From Dialister pneumosintes (GTDB lineage: Bacteria; Bacillota; Negativicutes; Veillonellales; Dialisteraceae): a DNA stretch of 64,000 nucleotides. Of the stretch, positions 35,667 through 46,111 are shown in pieces. The stretch lies in assembly GCF_001717505.1 (NCBI RefSeq), contig NZ_CP017037.1, positions 1,197,001-1,261,000 on the forward strand, read 5' to 3'. Every line of letters begins with the position of its first letter. The stretch's first letter is position 1. The notes below the pieces were generated by a model. That model made no database searches, had not been told where the DNA came from, and saw nothing but the letters and a program-made list of their open reading frames with translations. The translations under genes were made by a program, and so were the position numbers.

Positions 35667-37007
35667 ATGAATAAGAAAATAAAAATAGCCGAGAAATTAT
35701 TTCTTGCTTGTGATTTCGATGAAGCTTTTTTGCGTTGCAAAGAATTAGCCGAAGAGGGAAATGCGCGAGCTATGTATTTGCTAGGGATATTGTATGGATT
35801 TGGGTATGGACATGTAGAAAGAAATCGAGATGCATGTTTACATTGGCTTGAGCGGAGTACCGCAGAGGGCGAGTATCTGGCTTGGGTGGCAATGGCATCC
35901 ATTATTCCACCGGAAACAACCGGTGTTTCTACCGTTTTTAATGGATTGGCAGAAATGTTAATTCCTCTTGCACAAGCCGGAGATATATTTGCTCAATATG
36001 AAGTAGGAATGCTATATATCAATGGATGGGGGATTGAACCGGATATTGAAAAAGGGGCGGAGTGGATAAAGAAGTCAGCAGATACCGGTTATTTTATAGC
36101 TATGGATGACTTAGCTACTTTATATAAAGAACGTGCTTTAGGAAGTGGACGAGAAAAGGATGCTTGGAGATATTATCTCAAGGCGGCAGGATTAGGTTAC
36201 CGAGATGCAGAATATCATTTAGGTGAATGTTATTATGAAGGCTGCGGTATAGAAAGGGATTTAGAGAAGGCGGTTATCTGCTATAAAAAAGCACTATCTA
36301 ACGGTTCTATGCAAGCGGCAGATGCATTAGGTACCATGTGTATTCTAGGTGAAGGGAACGTAGGAGATAAGCATAAAGCTTTTTCTTACTTTAAGAAAGC
36401 ATTACAAGGTGGATACATACGTTCCTTAGGAAAATTAGGCGATTGTTATTACTATGGTCGTGGCATAGCACAAGATTTCGTCAAAGCACGTACTTGTTAT
36501 GAAGAGGCTTGGGAGCATGGTGATTACTTTGTAGCTGTACGCATCGGTACCATTTATTTAGTAGGATTGGGTGTTGCTAAAGACGAAAAGACCGCTTTGG
36601 CTTGGTTTACTAAGTCGGCAGAAGCCGGAGATCCGGATGGTGTATATTTTCTTGCAGAATGTTATTGGTTCGGCATAGGCACTTTAGAAAATAAGGAAAA
36701 AGCGATTACTATGTATGTCAATTCAGCAGAAGTAGGTCAAGTATCCGCTATGACACGACTTGGAGAAATGGCACAAGCTTCTAAGCGATATGAAGAAGCT
36801 ATTCATTGGTTTGAGTCGGCAGCATCTTTAGGATATCCACCGGCAGAAAATCTTTTGGCAATTTGCTATTATAAGGGAAATGGTGTTCCTAAAAATGAAA
36901 AAATCGCACGTGAATGGTTGGATAGAGCGGAAGTACAAGGCGATAAAGAAGCTACACGTTTAAAGCAACAATTATGGGGGATTACCTCAAAAAGTAATAT
37001 ACAATAA
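35667..37007 (+). CDS. Sel1-like repeat protein (paralogue 1)
   Basis: 446 residues from ATG at 35667 (TGGAGTG ahead; the earlier in-frame ATG at 35652 lacks a site). It consists of about ten Sel1/TPR-like repeats, for example YHLGECYYEGCGIERDLEKA and KLGDCYYYGRGIAQDFVKAR. No signal peptide is visible, so it is probably cytoplasmic. Sel1 repeats mediate protein-protein contacts. It begins a run of three paralogues, the third cut off from the others by a prophage remnant. Confidence 0.85.
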   Translation: MNKKIKIAEKLFLACDFDEAFLRCKELAEEGNARAMYLLGILYGFGYGHVERNRDACLHWLERSTAEGEYLAWVAMASIIPPETTGVSTVFNGLAEMLIPLAQAGDIFAQYEVGMLYINGWGIEPDIEKGAEWIKKSADTGYFIAMDDLATLYKERALGSGREKDAWRYYLKAAGLGYRDAEYHLGECYYEGCGIERDLEKAVICYKKALSNGSMQAADALGTMCILGEGNVGDKHKAFSYFKKALQGGYIRSLGKLGDCYYYGRGIAQDFVKARTCYEEAWEHGDYFVAVRIGTIYLVGLGVAKDEKTALAWFTKSAEAGDPDGVYFLAECYWFGIGTLENKEKAITMYVNSAEVGQVSAMTRLGEMAQASKRYEEAIHWFESAASLGYPPAENLLAICYYKGNGVPKNEKIAREWLDRAEVQGDKEATRLKQQLWGITSKSNIQ

Positions 37008-37027
37008 AAATTTTCAGGGGGAGTAGT

Positions 37028-38200
37028 ATGAGTCAAACATTGTCTGAAAAAAGATTTATTCAACACGAATTTAAAAATGCAATGGCAGGTCTGCGTCGTA
37101 TGGCAAAAAATGAAAATACACGAGGAATGTATTGCTTAGGCGAACTATTAATACAGGATTCTTTATTCACAGAAAAGAAAGAAGACCGTATCGAAGGAGT
37201 TCGTCTGTTGGCAGAAGGACTTCTGATAGGAGATCCTCTTTGTTTTGTTGCTTATATGCGATATGATATCGGACTTCGAGGGGTAGACCTTACTTCTGCT
37301 AAACGTGCTAAAGTGATTGCTAAAGCACAAGAAATGATGCGTGATGAACAAGTAGAATCTTCTCTACGTATTATGGCAGAAGAACACGATATTCTTGCTA
37401 TGATGGAACTTGGTATGGCATATGCTTTCGGTATTATGGTAAAAGCTGATAGAAAGCAAGCCGTTTTATGGTTGGAACGGGCTGCTGATGCAGGGTACTG
37501 GGGAGCGATGCTTCAGGTGGCAGGTATTCTTATGCGTGAACAAAAAGACGATGTAAGAAAAAAAGCGTTTTCTTACGTAGAAAAAGCAGCAGCTATGGGT
37601 GATGGACTCGCTGAAGTACGCTTGGGTGATTGTTGGCATTATGGGTTGGGCTGTGAACGTTCTTTTGAAAATGCAAGACGTTATTATGATATTGCTTGTC
37701 GCCGAGGCAGTTTATTAGCCGTATTCAGTATGGCGAGACTATATGATGATCGTGTATTTCCGCAGCGAAGTGAAATGCAAGCAGCTATTTGGACAGAAAA
37801 AGCAGCACAGATGGGAAATGTAGATGCTATGTGTGCTATGGGCGATCGCAATTTTTACGGTATCGGTGTTATGAAGGATTTAAAGAAAGCGGAATATTGG
37901 TATAAACAGGCTGTAAAAACTAAGAATGGGCGAGGGTACTTTGCTATAGGACGTTTTAAGATTTATATATCTAAGATGAGCGAAGGTATTAAATACATGG
38001 AAAAAGCGGCTATTGCAGGATGGCCGGAAGGATACTATGTATTAGGACTCATGAAAATGCAAGGCATCGGTATGAAACAAGATAGAAGAAGAGGTCGAGT
38101 ATTATTAGAACAGGCAGCTGCTGCCGGTGTATCTGCCGCTAGAGAGGTCATTAGAAATAAAGGAAAAGTAAACTTTTTACAAGCATTACAAAGCATATAA
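37028..38200 (+). CDS. Sel1-like repeat protein (paralogue 2)
   Basis: 390 residues, Sel1 repeats throughout, such as VRLGDCWHYGLGCERSFENA and MCAMGDRNFYGIGVMKDLKK. The N-terminal 60 residues are more divergent and basic. GGGGGAGTAGT precedes the ATG, 20 bp after paralogue 1. No signal peptide. Ends at a terminator just before the prophage remnant. Confidence 0.85.
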   Translation: MSQTLSEKRFIQHEFKNAMAGLRRMAKNENTRGMYCLGELLIQDSLFTEKKEDRIEGVRLLAEGLLIGDPLCFVAYMRYDIGLRGVDLTSAKRAKVIAKAQEMMRDEQVESSLRIMAEEHDILAMMELGMAYAFGIMVKADRKQAVLWLERAADAGYWGAMLQVAGILMREQKDDVRKKAFSYVEKAAAMGDGLAEVRLGDCWHYGLGCERSFENARRYYDIACRRGSLLAVFSMARLYDDRVFPQRSEMQAAIWTEKAAQMGNVDAMCAMGDRNFYGIGVMKDLKKAEYWYKQAVKTKNGRGYFAIGRFKIYISKMSEGIKYMEKAAIAGWPEGYYVLGLMKMQGIGMKQDRRRGRVLLEQAAAAGVSAAREVIRNKGKVNFLQALQSI

Positions 38201-38204
38201 ACCC

Positions 38205-38235
38205 AAAACAGTCATCTGTTGTAGATGGCTGTTTT
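38205..38235 (+). terminator. Terminator of the Sel1 gene pair
   Basis: A 13-bp stem AAAACAGTCATCT/AGATGGCTGTTTT (one T-G pair), 5-nt loop. Confidence 0.85.
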
Positions 38236-38406
38236 TATATGGTTGCTAAAAAATTATGTAAATTATTAAAATTGCAATGTAAAGATGTGCAAATCATAGT
38301 AAAGTATACTTAATTATTGTTAATTAAAAAATCAAATAAAGATATATAAAGGATGTATCAGAAAGGAGTTGTCTTTTTTATGTTATAATAATAAGAATCA
38401 AAGATT

Positions 38407-38442
38407 AAACACCTAGACTTTATCGATAAAATCTAGGTGTTT
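38407..38442. terminator. Hairpin next to the left prophage boundary
   Basis: Stem AAACACCTAGA...TCTAGGTGTTT with inner TTTAT/ATAAA and one mismatch, then TTTTTC on the plus strand. It lies 17 bp past the integrase stop and can end transcripts from either side. Confidence 0.7.
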
Positions 38443-38458
38443 TTCTATTAAGACATGT

Positions 38459-39571
38459 TTAAGTTTGTATAGAATTATTTTGCGTGGCTACCACGTGGCT
38501 ACCACGAGGAGCCATTTGCATATCAATCCCATATGGAAGAGAATCAACTGCAGCTATTAGTTGTGGGATAGTTTTATGTGTGTAAATGTCTTTTGTTACG
38601 TTATCAGTACTGGAATGCCCTACAATTTGTTTTTGTATCTTTTCCGATATCCCGTAATTATCGCATAACGTTATGAAAGTGTGTCTAGCATCATGTGGTA
38701 TATAAGCTCGATTAAAATATTTTTCGAAACTTTCCCTGGCATAAAACATTCCTTTTAACTTGTAAATACCTCTTGAGAGGTTAGGCACAATTAAAAATTT
38801 GGATTTTTTAAATAATGCTATGTTATAAAAATATTTCACAAAAGGAAGAATGCATTTGGCGATAGGTATAATTCTGTTTTTCCCTGCAGAAGTCTTTGAA
38901 CCACCTATCATAATCCGTTTAGTGAGATCTACATTTTTTACCTCCATTTTAGATAATTCATTTGACCGCATGCCTGTATAAGTATAAATAAGTATAATTT
39001 TAACGATATCTTGATGGGTGTCTCTCCAAAGCTGCTGCATTACTTCTGTAGTAAAAGGTTTATGAAGTGTTGACTTTTTTAATTGCTGAACTTTAACAAA
39101 TTTTGAATAATTTTTTATAGCTAAATCGTTAGCTAAGGCATAGTCATAAATCATGTGATAAGTCGTTAGCATTGCACGCTGAACGGCAGCGGAATCGGTA
39201 GAGTCGATAAGAGCTTGCAGGTGAATAGTTTTTGTTTCTTGCGGGGTAAGAGACTGAATTTTAGAAGAATGATTTTTCCATGCGTTTAGCGTGGCAAGAC
39301 TGATAGGTTTATTCAGCCTTTCTCGTTCAGCAAGTACACGTTCCCATATTTGTTTCCAGGTTATCTTTTTAATGACTCTGTCAGTAGGTGAGGCGTTGTA
39401 TAAATCAAGCGCAGATTGCGCTTCTTTATGAGTTCTAAAACTTCCGATGATTTTTTTCTTACGAATACCCTTATCATTCATCCCTAGATTGATGACTGCT
39501 ACCCACGGTTTACGTCTACGAGTGTTATCGCTGCGTTTATATATAGATCCAGTTCCGTTTGCTCTGCGCAT
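38459..39571 (-). CDS. Tyrosine-type phage integrase
   Basis: 370 residues. An N-terminal AP2-like arm domain (KRSDNTRRRKPWVAVINLG), a SAM-like core-binding domain (residues about 75-165), and the catalytic domain with R in YTYTGMRSNELSKM, HxxR in PHDARHTFITLCDN, H in IVGHSSTDN and the nucleophile Y in KDIYTHKT. All catalytic residues are present. AAGGAGG lies 10 bp ahead of the ATG. It is at the left edge of the remnant, transcribed outward, and its last six codons lie across the attL core. Confidence 0.92.
   Translation of the reverse strand: MRRANGTGSIYKRSDNTRRRKPWVAVINLGMNDKGIRKKKIIGSFRTHKEAQSALDLYNASPTDRVIKKITWKQIWERVLAERERLNKPISLATLNAWKNHSSKIQSLTPQETKTIHLQALIDSTDSAAVQRAMLTTYHMIYDYALANDLAIKNYSKFVKVQQLKKSTLHKPFTTEVMQQLWRDTHQDIVKIILIYTYTGMRSNELSKMEVKNVDLTKRIMIGGSKTSAGKNRIIPIAKCILPFVKYFYNIALFKKSKFLIVPNLSRGIYKLKGMFYARESFEKYFNRAYIPHDARHTFITLCDNYGISEKIQKQIVGHSSTDNVTKDIYTHKTIPQLIAAVDSLPYGIDMQMAPRGSHVVATQNNSIQT
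38479..38493. repeat. Left attachment-site core (attL)
   Basis: TTTGCGTGGCTACCA, identical to 43212-43226, lying inside the last codons of the integrase gene. The 11-bp part CGTGGCTACCA is repeated again in tandem at 38494-38504. Confidence 0.75.
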
Positions 39572-39575
39572 AAAA

Positions 39576-39604
39576 AATCGACCTCCTTAAAAAATAGGTC
39601 GATT
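39576..39604. repeat. Inverted repeat around the integrase ribosome site
   Basis: AATCGACCT (39576-39584) and AGGTCGATT (39596-39604), perfect 9-bp arms. In the integrase mRNA this hairpin would hold the AAGGAGG site partly in the stem. The left arm sequence recurs at 39624 at the start of the divergent short RNA. Confidence 0.6.
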
Positions 39605-39608
39605 GTGA

Positions 39609-39614
39609 TATAAT
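39609..39614 (+). promoter_or_regulatory. -10 box of divergent short RNA 1
   Basis: TATAAT in the context ATTGTGATATAATAAAA. No good -35 is visible at 17 bp. The same context recurs at 39692-39705. Confidence 0.5.
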
Positions 39615-39619
39615 AAAAC

Positions 39620-39690
39620 TATAAATCGACCTCGTGGTTGGGGTTTTGATTTTCCCGTTACTCTGTTGGCGCAGGGTAGCGGGTTTTTTT
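39620..39690 (+). ncRNA. Putative short RNA 1, antisense to the integrase ribosome site
   Basis: A transcript from the TATAAT at 39609 would begin near 39620, contain AAATCGACCTC (39623-39633), and end at a 12-bp terminator stem, CCCGTTACTCTG pairing with CAGGGTAGCGGG (39654-39683), followed by TTTTTTT. The AAATCGACCTC segment is the exact complement of GAGGTCGATTT, which overlaps the integrase ribosome site. No open frame of note. Confidence 0.45.
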
Positions 39691-39697
39691 ATTGTGC

Positions 39698-39703
39698 TAT
39701 AAT
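39698..39703 (+). promoter_or_regulatory. -10 box of divergent short RNA 2
   Basis: TATAAT in the context ATTGTGCTATAATATGA, closely matching the promoter of short RNA 1. Confidence 0.5.
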
Positions 39704-39709
39704 ATGAGT

Positions 39710-39785
39710 AGTGAATCGTCTACAGCGTGTAATGGCGTTGGACACTGAGCCGCTACTTAAATAGTAGTGGCTCTTTTATTTTGTG
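39710..39785 (+). ncRNA. Putative short RNA 2
   Basis: Starts after TATAAT at 39698 and ends at a terminator with a 10-bp stem AGCCGCTACT/AGTAGTGGCT (39748-39772, one G-T pair) and CTTTTATTTT. About 70 nt. Its body differs from short RNA 1, so the similarity is in promoter and layout only. Confidence 0.4.
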
Positions 39786-39843
39786 GTAATATCTATCTCC
39801 AACATTTTGCTAAAAATAGTGGTGCTAGTTATTGATTATTTTT

Positions 39844-40464
39844 TTAAAGTATTTGTCCTGAAGAGTTGTCAGATACAAAACTACGAGATAGTTGTAAAAT
39901 AAAATCGTTAGAATTGGCAATATCTTTAGGGACATCGAAATATATTTTGCCTGTTTTTTAAATTCCGGGATTAATTAAGTCTAAGAAGATGTTTTCATTG
40001 ATATTTATTGTTAGGGTAACAGGGGAATAAGTTGCATCTCCCAGTTTTAACCTAAAAGCACTATTATCTAATCTCATTGCTTCTTTAGCTATATTCTTGT
40101 ATTGAATAGTTAAAACAACAAAAGAACCATCAGCTTTTGTAAATAAATATCCACTTGAATCTGATACTCTATCGGTCACTTGTTTATCCAATACTGCAAT
40201 TTCAAAATTTTTAGCATTGTACAATTCTCCCATAGTATAAATCTTCTTAGCTTGTTGCGTTGTATCTGCTTTTGCACTTGTAGTTTGCGGCGCACTTTCT
40301 TTAGGCGCGATTACCCCTGCAGCGAAAAAGAGTAATAACGCCATTCCGAATACTTTTAATCTAGTAGGCTTCTTTAAAAACGGAGCCGCTTTAGTTGGTT
40401 TTATTAAACCAAAAATAAGCCATACAATTGATGCAATCGCTAAAATTCCAGATAATACTTCCAT
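39844..40464 (-). pseudogene. DUF4352-like membrane protein broken by a nonsense codon
   Basis: From ATG at 40464 (GGAGAATTAAT ahead) the frame encodes two N-terminal hydrophobic segments, a linker and a DUF4352-like domain ending NIFLDLINPGI, then TAA at 39958-39960. The same frame goes on without interruption for 37 codons, KTGKIYFDVPKDIANSNDF and onward to SSGQIL and a stop at 39844. FDVP after a KTGK turn is the normal C-terminal strand of these domains, so the TAA looks like a GAA or AAA mutated to stop. The shortened 169-residue product may still be made. It belongs to the left arm of the remnant. Confidence 0.7.
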
Positions 40465-40496
40465 ATTAATTCTCCTTACTCTAAATAAAATAATAT

Positions 40497-40757
40497 TTAA
40501 ACACAATAAAACTGAAATTTAGATAAATTTACATTTTGTTTATTATGAGAATGTGCTAACTTCTCAATTAAGTTAGCATTATAATGTGTATAAAAATCAT
40601 CTCTTTCTATATGTAATAATTCGTGTAATATAGCAATTCTTTGCAATTCAATAGAAATAGTATTATTAATGATGATAGTGTAACTACCATCTTGATTATC
40701 ATGCGTTAATGCTTTAATTTTATGCGGTAATAATTGATAGGTTAATACAATACTCAT
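40497..40757 (-). CDS. Short ImmA/IrrE-like metallopeptidase
   Basis: 86 residues. IAILHELLHIERDDFYTHYN contains the HExxH zinc site and the downstream D typical of ImmA/IrrE proteins, which cleave phage repressors. It is much shorter than usual (about 130-180), with only the catalytic helix region. It overlaps the repressor remnant by 3 bp (ATGA), the normal repressor-protease order in phage immunity regions. Confidence 0.65.
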   Translation of the reverse strand: MSIVLTYQLLPHKIKALTHDNQDGSYTIIINNTISIELQRIAILHELLHIERDDFYTHYNANLIEKLAHSHNKQNVNLSKFQFYCV

Positions 40758-41077
40758 TTATTTTCTTTTGCCTTTAAACCATTAATTAAATTTAAAACAA
40801 TATCTATATCTTCTTTTGATAAGTCTCTTGATGCATCAAATAATATACGTCCTTCCGGATTGGTTCGTAGTTGTTCTGCTATTTCAGCAACTTCTTTGTC
40901 ATGATAATAACCATTGTTAATAGAGGTTTTATCTTCTATTAAATCTGATTTTTCTATATTAAAGTAATTAGCCAGTATTTCAATTTTATCTATACGTGGA
41001 TATGATTTTGCTCTAACCCACTCTGAAAAAGTTGTTTCTTTAAAATTTAAAATTTTACAAACATCTTTTTGAGTAAC
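40754..41077 (-). pseudogene. Phage repressor (XRE/CI-type) lacking its N-terminus
   Basis: An open minus-strand frame of 107 codons with no start. It begins VTQKDVCKILNFKETTFSEW, which is helix 2 and recognition helix 3 of an XRE HTH, continues VRAKSYPRIDKIEILANYFN, and has a C-terminal part SRDLSKEDIDIVLNLINGLK seen in many Firmicute phage repressors. TAA lies directly before the valine (41078-41080). The first helix and start codon, about 15-20 codons, are missing and replaced by phage late-gene sequence on the other strand, so this is a deletion junction. Confidence 0.75.
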
Positions 41078-41081
41078 TTAT

Positions 41082-41450
41082 TTGTTTATCATTTTTACCG
41101 CACTCTGCATCTGCGGCGGAGTTTATCTCTTCCACGTATCCAGCACAATCCATCAGCATGACGGTGCATCAGTACAACATGTTGAAGAGTATAACAACAG
41201 AGCTACAGATGCAGTGCAGCATGCTACAGATAAGATTGCAACAGCTCAAGCAAAACTCAGCCGAACAAACGGAAAGCTTGAACGTGCTGTCGGACGAGCT
41301 CAAGACCTGCAAAGAGGAGCTGCATCAAACACAGGAATTATTGACGAGTGCCAATCAAGACTTAACCGCTGCCAAGAACTACTTAGCGACGCAGAAAGCA
41401 TTTATAAAGACGTTGAGAGAGGAGATAGATTCGCTGGAGAAAACGAATAG
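41082..41450 (+). CDS. Spanin-like phage protein (N-terminal membrane span plus coiled coil)
   Basis: 122 codons from TTG at 41082; the frame is open only to 41073, so the true start may have been lost at the junction with the repressor remnant. One membrane span (FIIFTALCICGGVYLF) is followed by helical sequence, ending with TGIIDECQSRLNRCQELLSD, like small lysis-cassette proteins of Firmicute phages. It overlaps the next frame by 293 bp. An inner-membrane spanin subunit is the best guess. Confidence 0.5.
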   Translation: MFIIFTALCICGGVYLFHVSSTIHQHDGASVQHVEEYNNRATDAVQHATDKIATAQAKLSRTNGKLERAVGRAQDLQRGAASNTGIIDECQSRLNRCQELLSDAESIYKDVERGDRFAGENE

Positions 41451-41523
41451 AAGACTAAAAAAACAGCGCCGGATATATGCTGTTTTAGCAGCAGGACTTG
41501 GTGTTGTTGCATTTGTTAAATAA
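41158..41523 (+). CDS. Overlapping coiled-coil protein with C-terminal membrane span
   Basis: 121 residues in the +1 frame relative to the gene at 41082. Residues 1-100 are almost continuous heptad coiled coil (QTESLNVLSDELKTCKEELH, LLTSANQDLTAAKNYL), then a basic stretch and a membrane span (RRIYAVLAAGLGVVAFVK). The span is encoded beyond the end of the overlapping gene, which argues that the frame is real. No good ribosome site precedes the ATG. It could be a lysis protein paired with its overlapping neighbour. Confidence 0.5.
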   Translation: MTVHQYNMLKSITTELQMQCSMLQIRLQQLKQNSAEQTESLNVLSDELKTCKEELHQTQELLTSANQDLTAAKNYLATQKAFIKTLREEIDSLEKTNRRLKKQRRIYAVLAAGLGVVAFVK

Positions 41524-41565
41524 AAGAACTATACTAGATTTATCAGTCCATTTGACTGCGAATTG

Positions 41566-41706
41566 TCAAGTCAAGTGCAACGTCTTTGAATAATAGACCT
41601 CGTAGGGAGTTCTGTATCCTAGGCATTTGCGTGGACGTCGATTTAATTTATCAAACATCTCCTGAATGTATGCATCCGGTATGTCGGTGATGTCTTGTCC
41701 GAAGCG
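41566..41706 (-). pseudogene. IS30-family transposase, C-terminal fragment
   Basis: The last about 46 codons of an IS30-type transposase: FGQDITDIPDAYIQEMFDKL then NRRPRKCLGYRTPYEVYYSK, ending LHLT and stop. NxRPRKCLGYxTPxE is the hallmark C-terminal block of IS30 transposases, close to the catalytic glutamate. The rest of the transposase and the other IS end are absent. The sequence just beyond (about 41548-41580) looks like the IS terminal repeat region. Confidence 0.75.
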
Positions 41707-41842
41707 CGCGAGGAGCTTCCCGACGGCATCGACGCAGGAAGTCATGGAGGAGGCGAAGTGCGCCGTTCTCGTTGTCAAATAGTCAAGGCAGAGCAGGCTA
41801 TGCACCTTGGCGAAGGGATTCCGGTAGAAGGAGGGTTATATC

Positions 41843-42127
41843 ATGTTGAAGAACATTAAGAAAGAGGCTCGGAAAAGCAAGATGAAAATCATTGGTGCGA
41901 TTGCCTCCTGCCTGTCCATTTGTATGTATGTCTCTTATATTCCGCAAATCATTGGAAATCTGTCCGGTCATCAGGGAGACTGGATTCAGCCGTCTGTCGC
42001 GTTCATCAACTGCACGATGTGGGTTGGATATGGGTTTTTCAAAGAGCAGCGCGACTGGCCAATCGTTTTGGCCAATCTCCCGGGCATCATCTTTGGTCTG
42101 ACGGCTGCGATTACTGCCCGTCTCTAA
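41843..42127 (+). CDS. SemiSWEET family transporter
   Basis: 94 residues, three membrane spans, one PQ-loop unit: YVSYIPQIIGNLSGHQG, AFINCTMWVGYGFFKEQRDW and NLPGIIFGLTAAITA. SemiSWEETs dimerise and carry sugars down their gradient. GAAGGAGGG lies 8 bp ahead of the ATG. The gene and its upstream 120 bp are visibly richer in G and C than everything around, and it lies beside an IS30 fragment, so it was probably acquired separately. Confidence 0.85.
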   Translation: MLKNIKKEARKSKMKIIGAIASCLSICMYVSYIPQIIGNLSGHQGDWIQPSVAFINCTMWVGYGFFKEQRDWPIVLANLPGIIFGLTAAITARL

Positions 42128-42177
42128 ATGCGCAAACCCAGCAACCAATACAGATGATGTGAATTTCCATAAATAAC

Positions 42178-42528
42178 TTGCTTAAGAGCAACAATATTAA
42201 TTACACTGTCCTTAAATCAAGAGATATGATAGAGTTTAAGCGAGAAAATCCAGGAAAGATTGACCCCTTTGGTGAATTTAAGAGAGAAATACCAATGGTA
42301 GTAGATGTTGATAATAAACAACTGGTTGAGTATATACAAGAGGTTAGAAACTATATCGTAGCTATGAATGTGACACTTGACACACTAGGCTAATATCAAA
42401 CGGAACAAGATTTTAATGAAAGAGAAAATACACTATCCCATGTGGTAGGGAATCTCTTTGGTAAGGTACATTCATTTAAGAGGACAACTAAAAAGTTAAT
42501 ACCGGCTCCTGCAGGTTTGCTTCTCTAG
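42178..42528 (+). pseudogene. Interrupted small gene of unknown function
   Basis: A 116-codon frame broken by TAA at 42391-42393. Before it: INYTVLKSRDMIEFKRENPG through MNVTLDTLG; after it, in the same frame: YQTEQDFNERENTLSHVVGN through LIPAPAGLLL and TAG. The only available start is TTG with no ribosome site, so the 5-prime end is probably also missing. AT-rich, unlike the SemiSWEET gene beside it. It ends just ahead of the first of two identical terminators. No family recognised; probably a phage gene relic. Confidence 0.5.
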
Positions 42529-42533
42529 TCACC

Positions 42534-42567
42534 AAAAGACCTACTGTTTAAACACGGTAGGTCTTTT
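42534..42567 (+). terminator. Terminator, copy 1 of a 34-bp repeat
   Basis: Stem AAAAGACCTAC...GTAGGTCTTTT with loop TGTTTAAACACG; identical over 34 bp to 43129-43162. Here the stem extends to CC/GG on both sides. Confidence 0.85.
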
Positions 42568-42588
42568 GGCGTTTTATATGCTTTAACC

Positions 42589-42625
42589 TTGACATTTATA
42601 TATATTTGTATTACACTTGTAATAC
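42589..42625 (+). promoter_or_regulatory. Toxin-antitoxin promoter and operator
   Basis: TTGACA at 42589-42594, 17-bp spacer, TACACT at 42612-42617. The palindrome GTATTAC-ACTT-GTAATAC (42608-42625) covers the -10 box, as expected for repression by the antitoxin-toxin complex. Confidence 0.7.
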
Positions 42626-42639
42626 GAGGAGGTTAGACT

Positions 42640-42861
42640 ATGAACATATCCATTAGAGTAAATGACAAAGAAGAAAGATTATTCAAAGCGTATGCTAAAA
42701 GTAATCACATGACTTTATCTGAAATGTTAAGAAAATATACATTAGAACGCATTGAAGACGAGATTGATATGAAAGCTTGTGAAGATTATCTATTACGTGA
42801 AGAATTGGGTGAAACCGAGTTTACTCCTGCAAGTGAAGTTTTTGAAAAGTTGGGGGTATAA
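42640..42861 (+). CDS. RelB/DUF6290-type antitoxin
   Basis: 73 residues. The N-terminus MNISIRVNDKEERLFKAYAK followed by HMTLSEMLRKYTLERI is a ribbon-helix-helix DNA-binding domain; the acidic C-terminal tail wraps the toxin. CGAGGAGG lies ahead of the ATG. Its last base is the first base of the toxin ATG. It should bind the palindrome in its own promoter. Confidence 0.88.
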   Translation: MNISIRVNDKEERLFKAYAKSNHMTLSEMLRKYTLERIEDEIDMKACEDYLLREELGETEFTPASEVFEKLGV

Positions 42862-43127
42862 TGTATTCTGTTGTTTTTGAAAAGCAAGCAATAAAGCAAC
42901 TCTCTAAAATATCTAAAATCGGTCAATTACAAATAAAAAAGCTGATAACGAAAATAGAAAATGCTGAAAATCCTAGATATATAGGGAAAGCTCTAACACA
43001 TAATTTAAAAGGTTTTTGGAGATATAGAGCAGGAGATTATAGAGTTATTTGCGAAATAAAAGATGATAAGTGTATCGTCGTAGTAATTAATATAGGAAAC
43101 CGTAGAGAGATATATGATAGAGTATAA
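42861..43127 (+). CDS. RelE/ParE-type toxin
   Basis: 88 residues. YSVVFEKQAIKQLSKI starts the fold; LKGFWRYRAGDYRVICEI is the characteristic GxWRYRxGDYRxxC block, and VINIGNRREIYDRV ends the chain with the basic and tyrosine residues used for ribosome-bound mRNA cleavage in RelE. Complete, probably functional. Overlaps the antitoxin by one base. Confidence 0.88.
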   Translation: MYSVVFEKQAIKQLSKISKIGQLQIKKLITKIENAENPRYIGKALTHNLKGFWRYRAGDYRVICEIKDDKCIVVVINIGNRREIYDRV

Positions 43128-43128
43128 A

Positions 43129-43162
43129 AAAAGACCTACTGTTTAAACACGGTAGGTCTTTT
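43129..43162 (+). terminator. Terminator, copy 2 of a 34-bp repeat
   Basis: Identical over 34 bp to 42534-42567; directly follows the toxin stop and is followed by further T residues. Confidence 0.85.
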
Positions 43163-43211
43163 TTATTTGCAAAAATATAGAATTTACATAATAAGATACG
43201 ATTAAAAAATG

Positions 43212-43226
43212 TTTGCGTGGCTACCA
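43212..43226. repeat. Right attachment-site core (attR)
   Basis: TTTGCGTGGCTACCA, identical to attL at 38479-38493; one copy only, without the tandem 11-mer seen at attL. Marks the right end of the integrated element, 150 bp before the third Sel1 gene. Confidence 0.75.
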
Positions 43227-43375
43227 ATTTAAAAATTGTTTGATGTTAAATTTCTAGTGTTTATCGAATGTTAGACGAGATTTGTATTATACATATTAAT
43301 ATTTTATAATAATAACAATTCATACAGGATAGGAACGCGTGATTTACTATCCTAAAAATGGCAGGAGGCTTATAC

Positions 43376-44557
43376 ATGATGAGTAAAGAATTAGCACAGG
43401 CGGAATTGTTGTTTAAACAGTTTAAACATAAAGAAGCTTATCCGATTTTCCAACAACTGGCAGATGCAGGGGATGCAAGAGCTATGTATTTCATGGGCAT
43501 TTATTCCAGATTGTATTTAGGGGTAGGACATTACAATCCGAAGAAGTCCATGGAGTGGTTTCAGAAAGGTATGGAAAAGGGAGATGTGTTATGTGCTATT
43601 TCTCTTGGATACTTGCAAGAAGAGAAAAAACGTGATGATTTCATGAAAGAATGGCTTCCTAAAGCGGAAGAGTTAGCGGCGGCAGGCGATGTGTTTGCTA
43701 TGGATGATATTGCAGATTGCTACTTTTACGGATTAGGAACTTCCGTTGATGAAAAACGTGGTTTAGAGAGTATTGATAAGGCGGCAGATGCCGGATATTG
43801 GTTAGCTGCTTATGATCAAGCTACACAGTATGATGATAATGGACATAGAGATACCGACTATGCAAAAGCTTGTGCTGCTTATAAAGAAGTTTCTAAATTA
43901 GGGTATTCTGAAGCGGATTATCGTTTAGGTTTTCATTACTTCCAAGGTATTGGTGTAGAACGTGATGTGAAAGAGGCGGTTCGTCTTTGGGAAAAAGCTT
44001 GGAATTTAGGAAATGCTGCAGCTGCTAATGCATTAGGTTTTGTATATTCTTTTGATGAAAAATTAAAAGATGATAAGAAAGCTTTTGAATGTTTTGATAA
44101 AGCAGCTAAAGCAGGGCTTCCTTTGGCTGCAGGGAATGTGGGAAACTGCTATTTCTATGGACGTGGTGTAAAGAAGAGTTTATCAGAAGCTAAAAAATGG
44201 TATGAAGTAGGTGCTAAAGCAGGCTTACATTCTTCTATGTTGCAATTGGGTGTTATTTTAAAAACAGAAGGTAAGAATAAAGAAGCCTTTGAAGTATTTT
44301 GTACAGCCGCTATTCAAGGATATCCGGCAGCTATGGGATGGGTGGCTGCTTGTTATGAACATGGAATTGGTGTAGAAAAGAGTCAGGAAAAAGTACTTTT
44401 CTGGCTTAAGCGTGCCGCTGCATTAGGCGACCAAAATGCTATTGCTAATTTACAAAGATTATATCCACAAAATACATTAGTAAAGACGAATGAAGAACTT
44501 TCGGATGAATTACCGGAAGAATTTATGGATATGGCAAATAATTCTACTGTTAATTAG
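43376..44557 (+). CDS. Sel1-like repeat protein (paralogue 3)
   Basis: 393 residues from ATG at 43376 (AGGAGG ahead; the frame is open from 43358). Sel1 repeats such as YRLGFHYFQGIGVERDVKEA and GNVGNCYFYGRGVKKSLSEA. Its start (AELLFKQFKHKEAYPIFQQL then ADAGDARAMYFMGIYSRLYL) is close to that of paralogue 1, so these two are nearer relatives than paralogue 2. No signal peptide. Confidence 0.85.
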   Translation: MMSKELAQAELLFKQFKHKEAYPIFQQLADAGDARAMYFMGIYSRLYLGVGHYNPKKSMEWFQKGMEKGDVLCAISLGYLQEEKKRDDFMKEWLPKAEELAAAGDVFAMDDIADCYFYGLGTSVDEKRGLESIDKAADAGYWLAAYDQATQYDDNGHRDTDYAKACAAYKEVSKLGYSEADYRLGFHYFQGIGVERDVKEAVRLWEKAWNLGNAAAANALGFVYSFDEKLKDDKKAFECFDKAAKAGLPLAAGNVGNCYFYGRGVKKSLSEAKKWYEVGAKAGLHSSMLQLGVILKTEGKNKEAFEVFCTAAIQGYPAAMGWVAACYEHGIGVEKSQEKVLFWLKRAAALGDQNAIANLQRLYPQNTLVKTNEELSDELPEEFMDMANNSTVN

Positions 44558-44566
44558 TAGAAGTAT

Positions 44567-44603
44567 AAAAGCTTTGGAAAAAGTATAATTTTCCAAAGCT
44601 TTT
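44567..44603 (+). terminator. Terminator of Sel1 paralogue 3
   Basis: A 15-bp perfect stem AAAAGCTTTGGAAAA/TTTTCCAAAGCTTTT with a 7-nt loop. Confidence 0.9.
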
Positions 44604-44655
44604 TATTATGAAAAAAGGTAACAGACATTATTTTGTGGGGGAATTATATAAAGTT

Positions 44656-44696
44656 AATCACAGAGTTATCAACATGTTGTGGATAACTCTGTGATT
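44656..44696. repeat. Inverted repeat carrying two DnaA-box-like 9-mers
   Basis: Perfect 15-bp arms AATCACAGAGTTATC (44656-44670) and GATAACTCTGTGATT (44682-44696) around an 11-nt centre. The junctions make TTATCAACA (44666-44674) and TGTGGATAA (44678-44686, the complement of the consensus DnaA box TTATCCACA) in inverted orientation. No T-run follows, so it is not a typical terminator. Confidence 0.6.
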
Positions 44697-44811
44697 TATA
44701 TAGTTTATCTACTATAAATAGATAAAAAATGACATAATTTTAGAAGGTGCATGTTATTGGCAGCAAAATAAAAAAAGTAAAACAGCTAATTATTTAACTC
44801 CAAAAGATAAC

Positions 44812-44832
44812 TTGCGAACAATTCTCAATTGT
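44812..44832. promoter_or_regulatory. Heme-operon operator, copy 1
   Basis: TTGCGAACAATTCTCAA followed by TTGT; differs from copy 2 by one base. It overlaps a possible -35 (TTGCGA, 44812-44817) with TATTAT 17 bp downstream (44835-44840). Confidence 0.6.
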
Positions 44833-44843
44833 GATATTATAAT

Positions 44844-44864
44844 TTGCGAACAATTCGCAATTGT
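44844..44864. promoter_or_regulatory. Heme-operon operator, copy 2
   Basis: TTGCGAACAATTCGCAA followed by TTGT, made of two interleaved 7-3-7 palindromes: TTGCGAA-CAA-TTCGCAA, and AACAATT-CGC-AATTGTT shifted by 6 bp. It starts exactly 32 bp after copy 1, which is three helix turns, and lies just after the -10. Interleaved palindromes are the layout of Fur-family sites, though the sequence differs from the usual Fur box. Confidence 0.6.
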
Positions 44865-44892
44865 TATTAAAAAGTGTTTTATAATGACACAA

Positions 44893-44934
44893 ACAATCAC
44901 TGAGAAAATAAATTTTTATTTTCTCAGTGATTGT
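44893..44934 (+). promoter_or_regulatory. Long leader hairpin of the heme operon
   Basis: 18-bp perfect arms: ACAATCACTGAGAAAATA (44893-44910) and its complement (44917-44934), with a 6-nt centre that is itself A/T pairing. No T-run after it, so not a simple terminator; it may be an RNA stability or processing element. Confidence 0.55.
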
Positions 44935-44963
44935 ATTCGGGAATTGTTTCATGGGAGGTATTT

Positions 44964-45098
44964 GTGAATATGATAATAGATGTACTGTCTTTATTTATAA
45001 AATCATATATTTTACACTTATTAGCAGCATTGGTTGCGGTAGCTATATTTCTTATATATACGTCGTTGGTTGTAACGGATTTGAAAGGGTGGGAGTAA
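44964..45098 (+). CDS. 44-residue membrane peptide at the head of the heme operon
   Basis: A GTG-initiated frame (or ATG at 44970) with GGGAGG 5 bp ahead: MNMIIDVLSLFIKSYILHLL, then AALVAVAIFLIYTSLVVTDL, ending KGWE. One long hydrophobic span with a short charged tail. Its TAA is followed immediately by the GTG of exbB, so the two are tightly coupled. No family recognised. A regulatory or assembly partner of ExbB/ExbD is a reasonable inference. Confidence 0.6.
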   Translation: MNMIIDVLSLFIKSYILHLLAALVAVAIFLIYTSLVVTDLKGWE

Positions 45099-45740
45099 GT
45101 GTTTAATTCTCTATCGATGTTAGTGCATTGGTTCGTCAGCGGTGGACTGGTTATGTATCCTCTTTTATTGTTGTCACTGATTTCTGTGGCTATTGCTGTA
45201 GAGAGATTTCATTATTTTAATATACGATGCAAAGGTTTTAGAAAAATGCTTATCGGTGTTGAACATGCCGTGCGTTGTAATCACTGGGAAGCGATAACAG
45301 AATGTTGTGAATGTTCCTCTTGTTTTGGTCGAGTTATTGAGGAAGGTCTTAACTCCGGACGAACCGAATTGGAAATACGTAATATTTTAAATGAGCGTAT
45401 GTCTATTGAGATGGCAGGTTTTAAAAAGTATTTAGATTATTTAAGTGCTATTGTTACTATTGCACCTTTATTAGGACTTCTGGGGACAGTCACCGGCATG
45501 ATTAGTACTTTTGGTGTATTAGGTGCCGGTGGAGGAGTTTCTTCTGTGACCGGCGGTGTGGGAGAAGCTTTGATTGCAACAGCTACCGGATTATGTGTGG
45601 CTTTAACTGCCTTTGTTTTTTATACATATTTTTCACATCGTATCGATTCGATTGTAAATGCTATGGAAAAGGTATGTATACTTATTGTTTATGAAAGAAA
45701 AAAGTGGTGGAGTGAATCATGTTCTCAACCTGCAGAATGA
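45099..45740 (+). CDS. exbB: ExbB/TolQ/MotA-type proton channel protein
   Basis: 213 residues from GTG at 45099. Three membrane spans; VTIAPLLGLLGTVTGMISTF is the MotA/TolQ/ExbB signature in span 2, and GGVGEALIATATGLCVALTA is span 3. With ExbD it turns the proton gradient into motion of TonB. The start follows directly on the stop of the small membrane peptide. exbD overlaps its end by 22 bp. Confidence 0.92.
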   Translation: MFNSLSMLVHWFVSGGLVMYPLLLLSLISVAIAVERFHYFNIRCKGFRKMLIGVEHAVRCNHWEAITECCECSSCFGRVIEEGLNSGRTELEIRNILNERMSIEMAGFKKYLDYLSAIVTIAPLLGLLGTVTGMISTFGVLGAGGGVSSVTGGVGEALIATATGLCVALTAFVFYTYFSHRIDSIVNAMEKVCILIVYERKKWWSESCSQPAE

Positions 45741-46111
45741 AACAAAAGCCTATGTTTATGATTATTCCGATGATTGACATTATTTTCTTTTTGCTTGTTT
45801 TCTTTATGATGAGCGGTGCCGGTGGAGAGCTGAAGAGTTTACCGGTTCAGTTGCCGACAGCTCGTCATGCATCGGATGCATATGTACCGCCTGTACATAT
45901 AGTTTTGCAAAAGGAGGGATCTCTTTTTATAGAAGAGAAGCAAGTATCTATGGAAGAGGCGGCACAATATATGCAGCATATTACAAAAGAAAATGGTAAT
46001 GTAAGTGCTTTATTGGAAGCAGATAAAGAGAGTTCACATGGGCAAGTTATTGAGGTAATGGATATGTTAAAAGGTGCAGGTGTTAAGCGATTAGCTGTTG
46101 CTGCACAGTAG
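45719..46111 (+). CDS. exbD: ExbD/TolR-type protein
   Basis: 130 residues. IIPMIDIIFFLLVFFMMSGA holds the single membrane span with the essential aspartate, followed by a periplasmic domain (SLPVQLPTARH..., VSALLEADKESSHGQVIEVM). GGAGTGAATC precedes the ATG inside the exbB end, so the overlap is real. Partner of ExbB and TonB. Confidence 0.92.
   Translation: MFSTCRMKQKPMFMIIPMIDIIFFLLVFFMMSGAGGELKSLPVQLPTARHASDAYVPPVHIVLQKEGSLFIEEKQVSMEEAAQYMQHITKENGNVSALLEADKESSHGQVIEVMDMLKGAGVKRLAVAAQ

Follow-up and report, generated by a model that had tools for sequence, protein, structure and literature searches.

The locus lies in a window of 64,000 nucleotides from Dialister pneumosintes (NZ_CP017037.1, positions 1,197,001 to 1,261,000). 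Two listed open reading frames, A (41082-41450, starting at TTG) and B (41158-41523, starting at ATG), share 293 bp, with B in the +1 frame relative to A, just as a preliminary description of this DNA had reported. Both frames are open further upstream, up to a deletion junction (Table 1). The in-frame codon before the repressor fragment (40757-41077, minus strand) is TAA, and the minus strand also carries a DUF4352 gene beside the integrase and ImmA-like genes. The locus is what remains of a prophage after its middle was lost.

Table 1. Features of the prophage remnant, in window coordinates
Feature	Position	Strand	Basis or remark
Phage integrase of the remnant	38459..39571	-	domain scan
Peptidase_M78/ImmA-like protein	40497..40757	-	18.3 bits, below the Pfam cut-off of 22
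Cro/C1-type repressor fragment, N-terminus missing	40757..41077	-	HTH_26 from model position 12; HTH_3 from 11
Deletion junction	41077..41080	.	cuts the 5' ends of A, B and the repressor
Frame A (i-spanin-like), 5'-truncated	41073..41450	+	open from 41073; relatives; match of a relative to phrog_18860
Frame A: remainder of N-terminal membrane span, then long helix	41073-41132	+	
Frame B (+1 partner), 5'-truncated	41077..41523	+	signal peptide end, coiled coil, short hydrophobic C-terminal peg
B signal peptide remnant (LICLSFLPHSASA)	41077..41115	+	overlaps A span; aligned to relatives
B C-terminal basic cluster (RRLKKQRR) and hydrophobic peg (IYAVLAAGLGVVAFV), K last	41449..41520	+	same architecture in 72 relatives

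Because the truncation cut both 5' ends, the listed starts are artefacts, and so is the earlier argument that each membrane span is encoded in unshared DNA. The TTG at 41082 is probably not the original start of A. A start of B at 41158 was rejected: the frame is open upstream of it, the end of a signal peptide (LICLSFLPHSASA/AEF) is encoded there, and B in relatives begins a few bases from the start of A. The B profile matched the window copy from model position 12 or, in another search, 5. The A span shares its DNA with the B signal peptide, and only the last ~20 codons of B are unshared. The preliminary description gave A a membrane span and a helix, and B a coiled coil; what it took for a membrane span at the end of B is a short peg (15 residues in this copy), not a full-length span. 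It had missed the truncation, the B signal peptide and the co-starting arrangement. With its 5' ends deleted, the window pair is probably non-functional.

No attachment tRNA was found near the remnant within 36000-46000 of the window. A frame at 41566-41805 (minus strand) looks by eye like the C-terminus of an IS30-type transposase and has no Pfam match, a small MtN3/SWEET-type (SemiSWEET-like) transporter (41843-42127, plus strand) adjoins the remnant, and a DUF6290 protein followed by a ParE toxin (42640-43127, plus strand) forms a probable toxin-antitoxin pair. The same genome (1.27 Mb, one contig) contains a second, intact pair at 313719-314210 (L055). This copy, inspected within 304000-323900, has diverged from that of the window (B is 39% identical), and by eye a GH25-like gene lies upstream of it.

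Searches with the window translations found relatives of B in 10 and of A in 9 of 100 kin genomes, largely in the same places and with the same overlap. With a B profile, matches at E <= 1e-3 came from 33 of 61 genomes in the order, weak long coiled-coil ones included, and matches at E <= 1e-6 from 63 of 300 genomes in the class. In the order search 36 places were taken, leaving out long-frame coiled-coil matches and contig-end fragments (G024); the pair was present in 35 of them, and L090 was a YadA-like false match. The class search gave 40 further places, of which 37 were kept; L111 had no open A, and L116 and L119 had a stop inside B. Of the 76 loci retrieved across Negativicutes, 72 thus had both frames open, and in every one of these B = A+1. 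Conservation of one frame only had been named beforehand as the outcome that would speak against the overlap; both frames were found to be conserved. In the 35 loci measured, 90-100% of A lies inside B. Among the carriers are V. parvula SKV38, V. atypica ATCC 17744 and Veillonella sp. 3891, VA142 and VA139.

Six IMG/VR viral contigs hold relatives; scans of IMG/VR with single window proteins found none, and a scan with the divergent alignment A1 found no conserved stretch. When 50,697 phage records were searched by tblastn, five intact proteins gave no match and a sixth gave one of 36%, to the unannotated faecal phage MT836582.1. In a control profile search of 398 genomes, scores above 47 bits occurred only in Negativicutes rows, and the matches inspected outside the class were mostly long coiled-coil frames. 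We looked for the pair in 14 shorter matches from outside the class, leaving aside further short-frame matches, namely G643, G568 and some that contain internal stops. None of the 14 had it, and 3 carried second frames, 92-108 codons long, within short repeats. A surface-level search of the literature on spanins in Veillonella or Negativicutes, on Veillonella lysis and on overlapping starts did not find the pair.

The start codons of A and B in intact copies are usually 2-10 nt apart. B starts 4 nt after A in 33 of 72 loci (e.g. ATGTATGA; 28 of the 33 are ATG/ATG), 2 nt before A in 10 and 10 nt after it in 10, counts that lean towards close starts because starts were picked by hand in one locus set and by a rule favouring close starts in the other. 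Those of L081, L121, L122, L133, L137, L138 and L139 are doubtful. A Shine-Dalgarno-like stretch lies upstream of most pairs, usually one for both starts. Since most intact copies co-start, one stretch of DNA encodes both the A membrane span and the B signal peptide. It is unusual for two genes of similar length that overlap almost completely to have nearly coincident starts, usually behind one ribosome-binding region, and to keep this arrangement across a class.

Next, we examined selection on the two frames. At the window itself, B stayed open in 4.4% of 5000 synonymous permutations of the A codons and A in 0.7% when those of B were permuted, in line with the earlier suggestion that the overlap exceeds chance. 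The same permutation was applied to 41 representatives sharing <40% identity; there the log10 probabilities that the frame is open sum to -46.9 for B and -87.8 for A. In the overlap of 13 disjoint pairs of relatives, differences at A1/B3, A2/B1 and A3/B2 numbered 422, 268 and 266 over 1631 codons. Single-frame controls gave 59:37:98 for B1, B2 and B3 in the B-only tail of the same pairs (233 codons), and 77:49:267 for positions 1, 2 and 3 in the neighbouring upstream gene of 4 pairs. Compared with these controls, the pattern of the overlap indicates that neither frame has a free wobble position. The B proteins of L059 and L060 are 95% identical and so are their endolysins; the endolysin genes differ at 58 third positions in 191 codons, and the overlap at 17 positions of any kind in 151. 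By these substitution and permutation patterns the double-frame overlap is real, with both frames conserved and under purifying selection.

A has an N-terminal span in 67 of 72 relatives (KD17 > 1.6 in the first 50 residues) and a favourable best 19-mer (below 1 on a flat insertion scale) in 66 of 72. AlphaFold predicted a single helix, residues 2-151. A is thus a putative type II membrane protein with a long helix, and in this predicted orientation it has the features of an i-spanin, i.e. type II topology, an N-terminal span and a periplasmic domain. The phrog_18860 model matched A of V. parvula SKV38 with E 2.1e-56; it covers A and not B, and has no assigned function in PHROGs. No known spanin was matched with confidence: on A proteins the best E values of Rz-like spanin phrogs were between 3e-4 and 0.1, and on most B proteins they were weaker. 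Coiled coils draw chance matches.

A Sec signal h-region was found in 69 of 72 B proteins. AlphaFold predicted a signal helix, a poorly predicted linker and a helix at 48-173 (~126 residues), which would be ~190 A long at 1.5 A per residue. The hydrophobic tail has a median length of 12 residues in the 72 relatives, with basic residues on both sides: K or R is among the last three residues in 68 of 72, and the 12 residues before the tail carry a mean net charge of +3.3 in the 65 B proteins with a tail of nine or more. A favourable 19-mer (below 1 on the flat insertion scale) was present in none of the 72 tails. Searches of PHROGs, Pfam and NCBIfam with B gave weak coiled-coil-like matches only, those in NCBIfam all far below cut-offs.

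The pair is located in a lysis cassette, as are two-component spanins. We searched its surroundings with nine endolysin queries of five kinds (GH25, Amidase_2, Amidase_3, peptidase M15 or VgrG3-like). In 60 of 72 loci the 3 kb upstream of the pair contain, on the same strand, a relative of a Pfam-identified endolysin, and none of the 72 has one downstream; in the remaining 12, no relative of the nine queries was found within 3 kb upstream. At L075 (6896-7769), two extra ORFs separate the pair from the endolysin-like gene, as though the cassette had taken up a small module. A simple lipobox rule, applied to the same strand of 35 cassettes, picked out B of L055, A of L070 and L073, and a 37-codon ORF in L058, and no separate o-spanin-like lipobox gene, which agrees with the earlier remark that no lipoprotein partner was to be seen.

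The preliminary description had raised the possibility of a two-component pair, unlike the known ones, with which phages of diderm Firmicutes disrupt the envelope. This suggestion fits, because both frames occur class-wide, an endolysin lies just upstream, no lipobox protein accompanies the pair in the 35 cassettes scanned and no pair was present outside the class among the matches examined, though two of its original supports were wrong and the lysis role is a prediction. We consider it probable that the pair is a lipoprotein-free, two-component, spanin-like system by which Negativicutes phages would disrupt the outer membrane. A would be anchored in the inner membrane and reach across the periplasm, and B would be exported and pair with the helix of A. 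The basic-flanked peg of B would enter a membrane from the periplasmic side, most likely at the inner leaflet of the outer membrane, in the least certain step of the scheme; the outer membrane is favoured because the tail is short and its charge reversed. There the peg would replace the lipid anchor of Rz1. Once the endolysin had removed the peptidoglycan, A/B complexes would cluster and the two membranes would be pulled together or fused. The adjacent starts and the usually shared ribosome-binding region could provide matched dosage of the partners.

Three other readings bear on this proposal. That one frame alone is functional, the other being open by chance or codon bias, is extremely improbable: in single copies a +1 frame is fairly easily open (median 0.07 for B given A), but this reading conflicts with the finding that A and B are jointly open across the 41 divergent representatives, with the way substitutions are distributed in the two frames, and with the features that each protein conserves. 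The permutation and substitution tests likewise reject a de novo ORF arisen by chance. We regard as unlikely a second reading in which both proteins reside in the inner membrane (A as type II, B as type I), forming an inverted i-spanin pair or controlling holin and endolysin, and touch the outer membrane only via protein contacts. The terminal K/R of nearly all B tails (68 of 72) would suit it; a hydrophobic stretch of just ~12 residues, the lack of a favourable 19-mer in any of the 72 and the strong positive cluster (mean +3.3) on what would be the periplasmic side argue against it. Were B anchored C-terminally in the inner membrane, its link to the outer membrane would stay unexplained.

The third reading is an ordinary Rz/Rz1-type pair, with B a lipoprotein o-spanin of unusual lipobox and unknown sorting route. 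A Cys occurs near the signal-peptide end in 39 of 69 B proteins, and according to PMC6139136 a non-canonical lipobox (AWAC) is on record. However, the residue before this Cys is G, A or S in 9 and T, I, L, Y, F, M, W, P or N in 30 of the 39, the other B proteins among the 69 lack a Cys in this column, and Cys is absent from residues 15-45 in 21 of 72. A strict lipobox motif was found in 4 of 72, mostly within the hydrophobic core; 'LVSC' of L055 is a possible lipobox. The codon of the conserved Cys overlaps one in the A span that conserves a hydrophobic residue, often L, V or M; this explains the lipobox-like look, as the Cys can be a by-product of dual coding. The hosts argue against it as well. 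Passages of PMC5007114 state that LolA/LolB homologues occur in no Negativicutes genome examined, and passages of PMC10665443 call outer-membrane lipoproteins and Lol homologues of V. parvula so far unidentified; in the part of PMC5491611 concerned, 17 of 78 V. parvula outer-membrane proteins have predicted lipoprotein signals, and acyl modification was not found, a result called not conclusive there. Given the reported lack of Lol and of known outer-membrane lipoproteins, a lipoprotein o-spanin should not work in Negativicutes. We therefore hold a lipoprotein B to be highly unlikely.

The pair resembles lambda Rz/Rz1 in its overlapping frames beside an endolysin, with the partner in the +1 frame, and in that one of the two proteins would have type II topology in the inner membrane and a helix in the periplasm. 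Unlike Rz1, B has no lipobox, the mark of an outer-membrane lipoprotein o-spanin, and ends in a hydrophobic peg. The A and B starts nearly coincide, whereas in embedded pairs the Rz1-type gene starts at 0.4-0.5 of the i-spanin in ~70%, according to section 8 of PMC6139136. From its sequence features, the pair may thus work like the Rz/Rz1 family while failing one defining test of it, the o-spanin lipobox. B also resembles the unimolecular spanin T1 gp11, being exported with a C-terminal hydrophobic segment, but has no N-terminal lipoylation signal, a tail too short for a canonical transmembrane domain, and an overlapping partner.

In PMC6139136, Kongari et al. assigned no spanin to 91 of 677 phages that infect Gram-negative hosts; that source also notes a bias of gene callers against such overlaps, and its Table 10 places many cyanobacterial and several Thermus phages among those without. 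Passages of PMC10665443 report Lol as absent within Terrabacteria, and the two observations may be linked. More tentatively than the reading itself, we propose a separate lipoprotein-free spanin class of phages of Lol-less diderms, with co-initiating frames and two long rods, one anchored in the inner membrane and the other with a peg into the outer membrane, that would zip the two membranes together in the fashion of a SNARE-type fusion machine. The Thermus and cyanobacterial phages reported to lack spanins may have reached the same solution with unrelated proteins.

The pair offers a concrete, widespread candidate for how Negativicutes phages break a lipopolysaccharide outer membrane, and it is present in the genetically tractable V. 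parvula SKV38. At that locus (L142), where the pair occupies about 507850-508378 of NZ_LR778174.1, a tail-fibre gene, an integrase, phrog_23091 and phrog_27828 proteins and an endolysin lie upstream of the pair; by position and hydrophobicity, the two phrog proteins are possible holins.
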